Program-made: the position numbers and the translations under genes
The notes under the pieces: model-generated
What the model was told of the DNA's origin: nothing
Databases searched by the model: none
The model's input: the letters and a program-made list of their open reading frames with translations, nothing else
Assembly: GCA_017792445.1 (NCBI GenBank)
Contig: CP051232.1
Span: 1,612,001-1,676,000, forward strand
DNA: 64,000 nt
Reading direction: 5' to 3'
Source: Maritimibacter sp.
GTDB lineage: Bacteria > Pseudomonadota > Alphaproteobacteria > Rhodobacterales > Rhodobacteraceae
In this document: piece by piece, positions 41,829-44,277 of the stretch
Position numbering within the stretch: position 1 is the stretch's first letter
Layout of the letters: the number at the start of each line of letters is the position of its first letter

Positions 41829-41915
41829 GCCCAGGTGGCGGAATTGGTAGACGCGCTAGCTTCAGGTGCTAGTGTCCGTATGGACGTGGAGGTTCGAGTC
41901 CTCTCCTGGGCACCA
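41829..41915 (+). tRNA. tRNA-Leu (anticodon CAG)
   Basis: 87 nt with encoded CCA. Acceptor arms GCCCAGG/CCTGGGC pair; the D-arm has GGTAGA; anticodon stem CTAGC/GCTAG encloses loop TTCAGGT, giving anticodon CAG (codon CTG); a long variable arm typical of leucine tRNA and the T-arm GGTTCGAGTCC follow. Its strong promoter lies just upstream. Confidence 0.97.
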
Positions 41916-42184: not shown

Positions 42185-42823
42185 GTGCGGACAATACTCG
42201 CGTCTTTGGTGTTTCTGCTTTACTCACAAACTTATGCACAGGCCACGACGATAGACTTTCGGGACTATCCGGTTTCATTTCCGCCGGTTACCCAGACCCA
42301 AGCCGGATTTGATGTGGACGTCCGTGCCCCGGTTTCAACTTCGGTGGGTGTCCACCTTGACCAACCGGATGTCGTCACGATTTCTCGAAACGGGCTGTTC
42401 AACCTGTCGCAAATCGTTGTTTACGGAATTGAAACATACTTTGGCATTTACGACGACAATAATCAGTTCGGCCAATATGTGGACAAAACCTTCCAGCGGA
42501 TCGACTTTCCGAACGTGCGCATTCTGGGCTACCGGAACGGGTCTCTGATCGCCGATCTGGCATATGCCGCCGGTCTGGGGCCGAAAACGATCAACGTCGG
42601 GCTGGAAGGCGTCGACAAGATCTCGATCATGACGAAGGCGGCACAGGCGAATTTATTCCCCGGTGCGACCTGCGTGATCTTCACCTTCAACAACGACTGC
42701 GAGCACTTCAACCTGACCAGCGTCGAGGTTCAGGCGGTGCCGCTGCCTGCGTCCTTCGCGCTGCTTGGGGCTGGGTTGTTCCTGCTTGTGGGCCAGCGCC
42801 GTTTCAGGTCGCGTCGCGCCTGA
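42185..42823 (+). CDS. VPLPA-CTERM sorting-domain protein
   Basis: 212 aa exported protein. Sec signal peptide at 1-20 (ILASLVFLLYSQTYA). The C-terminus has the tripartite VPLPA-CTERM sorting signal: VPLPAS, a hydrophobic helix (FALLGAGLFLLVG) and a basic tail (RRFRSRRA), recognised by alphaproteobacterial exosortases. The middle part is a beta-rich domain of unknown role with two cysteines (TCVIFTFNNDC). The start is GTG 42185 behind GGGGGG. GC is lower than in the neighbours, and it lies next to a tRNA, which hints at acquisition. No exosortase gene is in the window. Confidence 0.82.
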   Translation: MRTILASLVFLLYSQTYAQATTIDFRDYPVSFPPVTQTQAGFDVDVRAPVSTSVGVHLDQPDVVTISRNGLFNLSQIVVYGIETYFGIYDDNNQFGQYVDKTFQRIDFPNVRILGYRNGSLIADLAYAAGLGPKTINVGLEGVDKISIMTKAAQANLFPGATCVIFTFNNDCEHFNLTSVEVQAVPLPASFALLGAGLFLLVGQRRFRSRRA

Positions 42824-42832
42824 AACGTCACG

Positions 42833-43255
42833 TCAGCTGTCGCGGTCGACCGGGCCGCGCAGCGCCTTGACCTCTCCGCGCTGCTTTTTCGCGTCGAGAC
42901 GGCGGCGTTTCGAGCCCAGCGTGGGCCGCGTGGGGATGCGGCGGCGGGGGCGTTCCAGCGCCTTGCGGATCAGGTCCGCCAGACGCTCTTTTGCGATCTC
43001 GCGGTTGCGCGACTGGTGCCGCGTCTCGTCCACCTTCAGCACGAGGGCGCCGTCCGTGGTCCAGCGGCGCCCGGCGAGCCGTTTCAGCCGGGACTTCACA
43101 GCGTCGGGCAGGTTCGGCGAGCGCTGCGCCTCGAACCGCAGTTCGACCGCCGTCGCCACCTTGTTGACGTTCTGGCCCCCCGGACCGCTGGAGCGAACGA
43201 ACTGTTCCGTCAGCTCCCAGTCCTCGATGGTGATGGAGTCGTTGATCCTCAGCAT
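42833..43255 (-). CDS. arfB: Alternative ribosome-rescue peptidyl-tRNA hydrolase ArfB
   Basis: 140 aa. The GGQ catalytic motif is in SSGPGGQNVNK (near 21-31), and the basic C-terminal tail (RRRLDAKKQRGEVKAL) is the part that enters the empty mRNA channel of stalled ribosomes. It releases peptides from non-stop complexes. ATG 43255 is chosen to give the homologue-like N-terminus; a longer frame to 43318 overlaps a terminator region. Confidence 0.93.
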   Translation of the reverse strand: MLRINDSITIEDWELTEQFVRSSGPGGQNVNKVATAVELRFEAQRSPNLPDAVKSRLKRLAGRRWTTDGALVLKVDETRHQSRNREIAKERLADLIRKALERPRRRIPTRPTLGSKRRRLDAKKQRGEVKALRGPVDRDS

Positions 43256-43319
43256 GATGGGCCAACTGATGCCGCAGAACGGAACGTCAAGCAACGCCCG
43301 CCTCGGGTTGCGGAACACG

Positions 43320-43344
43320 AAAAGGGCCGCCCTTGCGGCGGCCC
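43320..43344 (-). terminator. Terminator of the small transcript
   Basis: Stem GGGCCGCC/GGCGGCCC (43324-43331, 43337-43344) with 5-nt loop, followed on the minus strand by TTTT. It lies upstream of arfB and so insulates that gene. Confidence 0.8.
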
Positions 43345-43422
43345 CTCGAGTCCTTTGGAGATTAGTTCGGTTAGGACCTTCCGCGGCCCAATCGAAAGGA
43401 GGATTCCCCTGTGGGGCTGCCC

Positions 43423-43479
43423 TCAGACGGAATTCCCTCCGACTGTTCCGACACCTCTCTCCAACATCGCTCTAGACAC
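43423..43479 (-). CDS. 18-aa peptide ORF behind an extended Shine-Dalgarno
   Basis: GTG 43479 starts the peptide MSRAMLERGVGTVGGNSV, ending at TGA 43423. The SD is the maximal complement to 16S rRNA, with AGGAGG 7 nt before the start, so ribosome loading should be very strong if the SD is exposed. The peptide has no recognised relatives to my knowledge; translation itself may be the function. Confidence 0.45.
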   Translation of the reverse strand: MSRAMLERGVGTVGGNSV

Positions 43480-43641
43480 TGGATCACCTCCTTTCACTGG
43501 GTTTCGATAGGGTCAGCGTTGCACAGATTTTGTGTATGTCAAAAACTTTTCCTCAAGCACTGGCGTTTTTCGCCAGCGCTTGGGGATGTGTGCCAAAACT
43601 GCCCGTAAATTGGTCGGAGCGTGAATCCGACCGTTCCAACC

Positions 43642-44277
43642 CTATGCCGGCTGGCGTCCCAGAAGGCTGGAGACCACCATGCGGAAGGGGATCAGCGCGA
43701 CCAGCGCCAGCGCCAGCTTCACACCCCAGTCGGCGACAGCCAGCGAGACCCACAGCGGCACCACCGGGCCGGCGCCCAGAAGCGGCACCGCCTCGTTCGC
43801 CCACGAGACGTCGTTGGCGGGTTCGATGAAGGACAGGCCGGTCGAGAAAGCGATCGAGAAGAACAGCACGGTATCGACGGCCGAGCCGACCAGCGTGGAC
43901 GCCAGCGGGGCGCGCCACCACTGGCCACCGCGCAGGCGGTCGAAGATCGCAACGTCCAGAAGCTGCGCCGTCAGGAAGGCGAGCCCCGAGCCGATGGCGA
44001 CGCGCAGCGTCACGGCGGGATAGGTATAGCCGTCGCCCTGCAGCATGATCTGCGTACCGATCAGCGAGCAGACGACGCCGGTCAGGAAGCCAGCGAAGAC
44101 GACCTTGCGCGCGGTCGCGACGCCGTAGACACGGTTCATCACGTCGGTGACGAGGAAGGCGAAGGGATAGGTGAAGGCACCCCAGGTCAGCCAGTCGCCC
44201 AGAAGGAACTGCACCAGGATGTTCGAGGCCACCACGACGATGGCCATGGCGATTACGCCGGGAAGAAGACGGGTCAT
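43642..44277 (-). CDS. Queuosine precursor transporter (VUT/YhhQ family)
   Basis: 211 aa, about six membrane helices. Family landmarks: the acidic helix YPFAFLVTDVMNRVYG (about 35-50), FLTAQLLDVAIFDRLR (about 100) and LVGSAVDTVLFFSIAF (about 132). It imports queuine/preQ0/preQ1 for tRNA modification, matching the queG gene at 29575-30618. The ATG at 44277 is chosen since it opens directly on the first helix; GTG/ATG codons further up run through a hairpin. No preQ1 riboswitch is evident upstream. Confidence 0.9.
   Translation of the reverse strand: MTRLLPGVIAMAIVVVASNILVQFLLGDWLTWGAFTYPFAFLVTDVMNRVYGVATARKVVFAGFLTGVVCSLIGTQIMLQGDGYTYPAVTLRVAIGSGLAFLTAQLLDVAIFDRLRGGQWWRAPLASTLVGSAVDTVLFFSIAFSTGLSFIEPANDVSWANEAVPLLGAGPVVPLWVSLAVADWGVKLALALVALIPFRMVVSSLLGRQPA

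Follow-up and report, generated by a model that had tools for sequence, protein, structure and literature searches.

We propose that a small unit of about 180 nt, flanked on the minus strand by a yhhQ-like gene and an RF-1-domain gene that we take to be arfB, may act as a ribosome-operated switch that doubles as the arfB leader, and that it may be the Rhodobacteraceae form of a class-wide small structured mRNA related to CC2171 (RF01867). The unit lies in the 64,000-nt stretch of DNA that was analysed (the window). The reading is tentative, and we would put it at somewhat below an even chance. It draws on the Shine-Dalgarno sequence (SD), a short ORF, covarying helices, synteny and spacing, all observed in the sequences compared. 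The parts of the unit follow one another in the order TTGACA, 47 nt, GAAAGGAGGTGATCCAG, GTG, 18 codons, TGA, hairpin, distal strand and GC-rich terminator (Table 1), and both the ORF and the closing intrinsic terminator described in the initial annotation were borne out. A terminator-like hairpin is present in 175 of 179 loci. Upstream, a -35-like hexamer (at most one mismatch) occurs in 43 of 55 regions of the Rhodobacteraceae type, in 40 of these cases at a distance of 47-49 nt upstream of the SD; at the window's locus no sigma-70 consensus pair passed a simple scan. Membership of this type was decided from the peptide and an ORF length of 18 or 12, L140 and L175 being left out, and yhhQ lies upstream in 54 of its 55 loci.

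Table 1. Features of the unit and its flanking genes, by position in the window
Feature	Position	Strand	Basis or remark
yhhQ-like (Vut_1) gene, upstream	43642..44277	-	Pfam PF02592
Putative -35 promoter hexamer TTGACA	43537..43542	-	sequence scan
GAAAGGAGGTGATCCAG, 17-nt perfect complement of the 16S rRNA 3' end (extended SD)	43479..43495	-	extends to first base of GTG
18-codon ORF MSRAMLERGVGTVGGNSV, GTG 43479 to TGA 43425-43423	43423..43479	-	ORF reading
ORF segment TTGGAGA	43458..43464	-	partners start-codon hairpin or distal strand, mutually exclusive
ORF TCGG, arm of long-range helix, partner CCGA 43370-43367	43448..43451	-	alignment
ORF CAGTCGGAGG, 5' arm of covarying internal helix H5	43436..43445	-	alignment covariation
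Hairpin H4, GGG-CAGC-CCC, immediately 3' of the stop codon	43413..43422	-	pairing vs shuffles
3' arm of H5, includes CCTCCTTTC (43402-43394)	43389..43402	-	alignment covariation
Distal strand CCGAACTAATCTCC, partner of ORF or SD	43357..43370	-	alignment; CCGRCCCACCTCC or CTGGCCCATCTCC in many relatives
Intrinsic terminator (approximate ends)	43319..43347	-	2 terminator-like sites vs 0.8 expected
arfB, downstream gene, RF-1 domain	42833..43255	-	Pfam PF00472

The SD is, as first noticed, an exact 17-nt complement of CTGGATCACCTCCTTTC, the 16S 3' end being read from Rhodobacterales rRNA operons by means of a 169-nt query (Tritonibacter, for example, matching at 100% over 165 nt); a scan of the window's own genome found no SSU rRNA, and the 16S end was taken from other Rhodobacterales. 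At up to two mismatches the 16-nt GAAAGGAGGTGATCCA has a single place in the 4.68 Mb, an exact one at this locus. The same pattern read backwards, however, also has one place in the 4.68 Mb at this tolerance, so that a single inexact place per genome is no more than chance would give, and what counts is solely that the complement is exact and conserved. All 17 pairs cannot form while the GTG occupies the P site, because the complement extends into the start codon. The core AGGAGGTG is intact in 91 of 92 places across the class, compared with just 33 of 92 for the full 16 nt, and strict conservation is therefore limited to the SD core. An SD of maximal length is notable in Alphaproteobacteria, given that the available text of PMC4117421 puts the share of Caulobacter CDSs with any SD at all at only 24.6%.

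The 21-mer GAAAGGAGGTGATCCANTGTC, which includes the start codon, was found with up to two mismatches at 92 places in 91 of 385 class genomes, whereas its reversed pattern was found at one, and the 21-mer is thus conserved beyond chance; for the 294 genomes without a match, absence and divergence of the element are both possible. Each matching genome has one copy except G048, which has two (L034 and G048:C1:2922049-2922069). Across a phylum sample, matches occurred in 53 of 86 alphaproteobacterial genomes against 2 of 213 other Pseudomonadota, and the latter two are chance-like, one being without a start codon and the other having a broken core. Judged by these counts, the element is real, widely conserved in Alphaproteobacteria and normally present once per genome. 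An exact-match scan of contigs gave at least 120 stretches; among the matches listed (120), three are titled as another phylum (the MAGs L094, L149 and L205), four as Pseudomonadota only, and the remainder as Alphaproteobacteria of several orders. The 179 loci used below are the distinct sequences among 211, with L060 and L066 lacking a match under the matching rule.

The initial annotation knew of no described element of exactly this form, and the idea that none exists was in part wrong. The Rfam covariance comparison then suggested gives a full-length match of the unit to RF01867 (1-159 of 159, E 1.1e-6), but at 36.9 bits, below the cut-off of 75. This locus is the best place for the model in the whole genome (E 5.9e-6, the next place having 0.64). 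The SD block and the terminator align and the middle is gapped, with an alignment accuracy of 0.58. Of 18 related loci scanned, 7 score above the RF01867 cut-off, with Rhizobium (MAG), Brevundimonas, Bosea, Microvirga and Methylobacterium among the titles, and because the unit itself falls below the cut-off while these relatives lie above it, we regard it as a diverged relative rather than a certified member of CC2171. Within the window's family, 33 of 37 genomes have an RF01867 match with an E-value no higher than 0.0022, and BLAST with the window's sequence matches 29 of 37; Salipiger, Defluviimonas and Gemmobacter are among the named loci that share the Rhodobacteraceae type and the synteny. 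A scan of the window at Rfam gathering thresholds found only a tRNA (gene at 41829-41912, plus strand).

CC2171, a Caulobacter RNA, resembles the unit in its GAAAGGAGGTGATCCAGTGTCT start and terminal terminator as well as in the full-length model match, and differs in the low score and the poorly aligned middle. It is classed as an sRNA in Rfam, where the description line, the only part compared, mentions no ORF, 16S match or arfB link. A limited literature search found no discussion of CC2171 together with Caulobacter; the name does not appear in the available portions of PMC5988900, PMC4117421 or PMC11005374, and neither it nor the peptide letters were found in those of PMC5082802. The accessible part of a Mesorhizobium huakuii study lists MH_s33, annotated as RF01867, as a 215-nt sequencing product (table columns interpreted without their header), and does not place it among the nine blotted sRNAs, which were novel candidates (PMC5596092).

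Start and stop codons look to be under selection. The ORF opens with GTG in 138 of the 179 distinct loci, ATG in 37, TTG in 4 and CTG in none, and the first base of the start codon in the 92 class places is A in 48, G in 37, T in 7 and C in none. Loci picked solely by an upstream yhhQ have a stop at codon 19 in 53 of 54 cases (codon 13 in the remaining one); in the 55 Rhodobacteraceae-type loci, a group defined partly by ORF length, codon 19 is TGA in 23, TAG in 22, TAA in 9 and the non-stop AGG in 1. The peptide follows MSR..LERGVGT in the Rhodobacteraceae type, MSHC..TW in many Rhizobiales, Caulobacterales and Rhodospirillales, MSxxKRCHLAGIAR in Bradyrhizobium and MSSE..EQP in other lineages, so that little beyond Met-Ser is common to the lineages. 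Entropy is equal over the three codon positions (0.78, 0.82 and 0.83), the synonymous share of single-base codon differences is 0.40 against 0.29 expected, and several conserved residues fall on paired bases. Conservation of the 18 codons, which the initial annotation proposed to check, thus holds for start, frame and stop but not for the peptide between lineages: translation seems to matter, the peptide itself much less. In three Azospirillum loci and one other (L132, L158, L167 and L069) the same SD opens an ORF of 56-59 codons which, by eye, has the look of a small secreted protein with a signal-peptide-like start, and here the element may have grown into a longer gene. Diverged copies were also seen in two genomes of the window's family, L053 with a 31-codon ORF and L060 with an SD-to-start distance one base shorter (by eye).

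The initial annotation had proposed that CCTCCTTTC, after the ORF, re-pairs with the SD over 9 bp plus CCCA/TGGG. The pairing is possible in the window, but it is not conserved: in 52 Rhodobacteraceae-type sequences 38.2% of cells are paired, no better than slid controls (31-44%), and we rejected this helix as a conserved switch. The two elements singled out at the start differ in this respect, the SD core being conserved and the distal CCTCCTTTC not. Judged by covariation, the CCTCCTTTC strand is instead one arm of a helix with the ORF (H5). In an alignment of 52 of the 55 Rhodobacteraceae-type sequences (A1; L003, L025 and L098 omitted), the combined structure exceeds all slides and 0 of 500 shuffles are as high on all five measures, although the shuffle counts overstate independence because the sequences are related. 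H5 pairs ORF codons 12-15 with the strand containing CCTCCTTTC in 77.3% of cells, against 62% at slide +1, with 57 cells changed on both sides; no shuffle of 500 equals it in cells, covariation score or percentage, and 59 of 500 match its count of pairs changed. A second, five-pair helix joins the ORF to the distal strand (TCGG with CCGA) in 92.2% of cells, against 2-46% for slides, and three of its pairs each show a single both-sided change. The start-codon hairpin is paired in 96.6% of cells (slides 41-51%) and is less strongly supported, being matched by 3-9 of 500 shuffles on four measures and by 148 of 500 on one. For H4, pairs within each of the 55 sequences average 4.44 of 5 versus 3.50 when shuffled (maximum 3.84 in 2000 shuffles), with each hairpin placed at its best-pairing position, a choice in H4's favour.

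The distal strand can also pair with the SD, in 95.9% of cells of A1 against 46-66% for slides. Many changes in this strand retain the pairing through G-U, and covariation cannot be tested for this helix because the SD side never varies. The motif C[AG][CT]CTCC precedes the terminator in 47 of 55 Rhodobacteraceae-type loci (1.6 expected), the window genome deviating with AATCTCC, and CAGCC is found in 34 of 55 (4.2 expected). Folding of 169 of the 179 loci, with shuffled bodies as the control and with loci excluded if no terminator was found or the ORF had at least 40 codons, predicts an openness in the 55 Rhodobacteraceae-type loci of 0.04 for the SD core (0.28 shuffled) and 0.14 for the start codon (0.45 shuffled). 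The best SD duplex ranks within the top 1 of 30 shuffles or better in 21 of 57 loci, against 3.7 expected. The window genome is an exception with a predicted SD openness of 0.45, about half open. Its best fold (-81.0 kcal/mol) leaves much of the SD region open and pairs TTGGAGA over a long range; forcing the SD:CCTCCTTTC helix gives -79.4 kcal/mol with an ensemble probability of about 0.10, and the SD:distal fold has -76.7 kcal/mol and a probability of about 0.004. The SD-sequestering switch suggested initially therefore survives in a changed form, in that SD hiding is predicted across the Rhodobacteraceae type, but through a strand other than CCTCCTTTC and with the window genome standing apart. 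As a candidate antiterminator we considered pairing between the post-stop element and the terminator arm. Its complementarity peak at the stop codon was erased by partner shuffling, and we rejected it; in Rhodobacteraceae-type loci the pairing is -12.72 versus -12.96 shuffled and so is not sequence-specific. What the two elements have in common is hairpin H4.

A similar arrangement, written in different letters, appears in a second lineage. In an alignment of 51 CC2171-type sequences (A2), ORF codons 3-5 (CAUUGUC) and a GACAAUG ahead of the terminator form pairs in 90.2% of cells; slides give 21-54%, and the excess over partner shuffling is slight (0.902 versus 0.879, maximum 0.902). CCGCGGUC and GACCGCGG are paired in 62.7% (slides 18-31%, at most 59.8% in 2000 shuffles). 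The start hairpin CAGUG:CAUUG, which uses the same CAUUG segment, is paired in 94.1%, a value that shuffles equal (0.941 both), and is without covariation. RNAalifold on A2 returned just a 3-pair hairpin in the SD region without variation, plus the terminator, because the middle aligns badly. The two lineages appear to share a common logic in which one ORF segment forms either a local start hairpin or a long-range helix. SD hiding, in contrast, is not class-wide: in 63 CC2171-type sequences both the SD (0.38 versus 0.27 shuffled) and the start codon (0.63 versus 0.38) are more open than in shuffles, and SD openness is no different from shuffled in the 25 SSE-like sequences and in 16 others. 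We therefore rejected class-wide SD hiding, for which support was found just in the Rhodobacteraceae type and in 10 Bradyrhizobium-type loci (above all for the start codon). Outside these two types SD:body duplexes are weak: 15 of the 99 other loci reach the top ranks where 6.4 would be expected, and none of the 6 Azospirillum-type loci does.

In the reading proposed here, these features belong to an RNA that would alternate between two folds sharing one ORF segment. Across Alphaproteobacteria this would be a small structured mRNA in which a promoter-like box lies about 48 nt upstream of a maximal SD, followed by a micro-ORF and a terminator. In one fold a local hairpin would hide the start codon, and the distal CACCUCC-like strand would then be available to mask the SD; in the other, the ORF would form a long-range helix with the strand next to the terminator, so that both the SD and the start codon stay accessible. 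Which of the folds prevails would be settled by a 30S subunit base-paired to the SD and then by a ribosome travelling along the ORF, and in this proposal the RNA would therefore report translation capacity. In Rhodobacteraceae the unit would double as the leader of arfB, whose transcription would probably depend at least in part on passing the unit's terminator. That the unit is transcribed and translated, is controlled by the ribosome and acts on arfB is what we infer from the arrangement. A stronger form would be a bistable class-wide ribosome meter: the RNA would carry the 16S complement together with, in several lineages, a strand partly imitating the 16S 3' end, so that 30S capture would compete with self-pairing, and the resulting state would set ArfB supply in Rhodobacteraceae. 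This form seems to us rather doubtful, though it deserves serious consideration.

The link to arfB was examined through the flanking genes. Where Rhodobacteraceae-type loci offer enough flanking sequence, yhhQ is the immediate upstream neighbour in 52 of 53, and 39 of 50 have arfB on the same strand no more than 700 nt downstream. The distance from the end of the terminator stem to the arfB start, available for 47 loci, is up to 30 nt in 13, 31-50 nt in 10, 51-80 nt in 12, 81-200 nt in 8 and more in 4 (cumulatively, up to 50 nt in 23 and up to 128 nt in 43). The shortest gaps have no room for a normal promoter, and therefore arfB there should need either read-through or a promoter within the unit. 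No such dependence follows from the longer gaps: a separate arfB promoter is possible in the window genome, because its 66-nt gap contains TTGACG and 11 of the 47 gaps exceed 100 nt. Outside the Rhodobacteraceae type, no arfB was found near the loci except in two Hyphomonadaceae (L117 and L160), where it is divergent and upstream of the element (tblastn ends -175 and -1030), a hint that the link may predate Rhodobacteraceae. Clustering of neighbouring genes, which used greedily picked ORFs of at least 90 aa and may miss real genes, found none widely shared outside Rhodobacteraceae, the largest clusters having 5 loci. In five Microvirga loci (L139, L155, L163, L173 and L199) a divergent upstream gene reads, by eye, like prfC (release factor 3).

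The tight synteny with arfB and yhhQ and the short gaps would also be expected if the unit were purely a cis-acting leader (attenuator) of arfB in Rhodobacteraceae, with its likeness to CC2171 being convergent. We think this improbable, since RF01867 has its best match in this genome at this very locus, the SD, the Met-Ser start and the long-range logic are held in common with the CC2171 type, and no antiterminator was found at the post-stop element. The unit does share with ribosome-mediated attenuators of the trpL/rnTrpL type a short leader ORF followed by an intrinsic terminator, and for a downstream gene transcribed by read-through, synteny and short arfB gaps were observed, at the level of sequence; it differs from them in having no run of regulatory codons, no supported antiterminator at the post-stop element and no shared downstream gene outside Rhodobacteraceae. 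A parallel comes from the same family, where the available text of PMC5089854 describes UpsM of Rhodobacter sphaeroides as a terminated mraZ leader with read-through, mraZ having no promoter of its own. UpsM is thus a tested case of an sRNA arising by termination in a gene leader, whereas the arrangement of unit and arfB is known here from sequence. UpsM differs in its gene and sequence, in an sORF that overlaps the terminator and occurs only in R. sphaeroides, and in that the same text mentions no 16S complement. A conventional gene for a small protein, preceded by a very strong SD, would account for the selected start and stop and for the raised synonymous share. This reading gains some interest from SEP1 of Sinorhizobium meliloti, an acidic 23-aa protein conserved in Rhizobiaceae whose translation efficiency is given, in the portion available of PMC10117765, as the highest among 54 non-annotated sORFs; SEP1 might be a homologue. 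We nevertheless consider a plain protein gene quite unlikely, given the divergence of the peptides beyond Met-Ser, the equal codon-position entropy and the coincidence of conserved residues with paired bases.

The unit could also work in trans, as an sRNA whose SD-like and anti-SD-like strands pair with other RNAs, the ORF being secondary or a second function. It has its own terminator and no widely shared neighbour outside Rhodobacteraceae, and 16S-like strands recur, with TGGAT in 26 of 66 CC2171-type ORF regions (4.1 expected) and GCCTC in 31 (11.7 expected). Anti-SD sRNAs exist in Alphaproteobacteria, the SisA family being so described in the accessible part of PMC12559287. SisA-D and alphaR8 resemble the unit as alphaproteobacterial small RNAs with an anti-SD signature, but according to that text they expose an unpaired UUUCCUCCCU and act as sRNAs, whereas the prominent element of the unit is the SD itself with its ORF; the core UUUCCUCCCU is absent from the unit's sequence. 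The anti-SD-like strands of the unit can, moreover, be in helices and differ by lineage, and a pure sRNA would not need the start, frame and stop that are kept. We therefore judge action in trans unlikely. Least probable of the alternatives, in our view, is a decoy that titrates 30S subunits through the 16S complement. The perfect complement and the near-invariant core speak for it, but a sink presupposes an abundance of RNA, conservation is strict only in the core, and most Rhodobacteraceae-type loci are predicted to keep the SD hidden.

Both the means by which a cell gauges its translation capacity and the control of ArfB appear to be open questions, and the proposed switch and arfB leader would be a direct test case for both: it occurs about once per genome, is an 'sRNA' in Rfam, places a micro-ORF behind a maximal SD and usually stands just before arfB in Rhodobacteraceae. 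As far as a limited literature search reached, the link to arfB is new; a phrase search in the available text of the review PMC8012679 gave no passage on ArfB expression or regulation. The element also serves as a warning that small mRNAs can be concealed among the 'sRNA' entries of Rfam.

Two minor observations concern other DNA. The exact 21-mer occurs in six IMG/VR contigs (L212-L217), where in five it opens ORFs of known types (three Bradyrhizobium-like, one Methylobacterium-like and one Brevundimonas-like), and these contigs are probably host DNA in proviral contigs. Within the window, a small protein encoded at 42185-42823 (plus strand) ends in VPLPASFALLGAGLFLLVGQRR and a basic tail, which we take to resemble a VPLPA-CTERM sorting signal.
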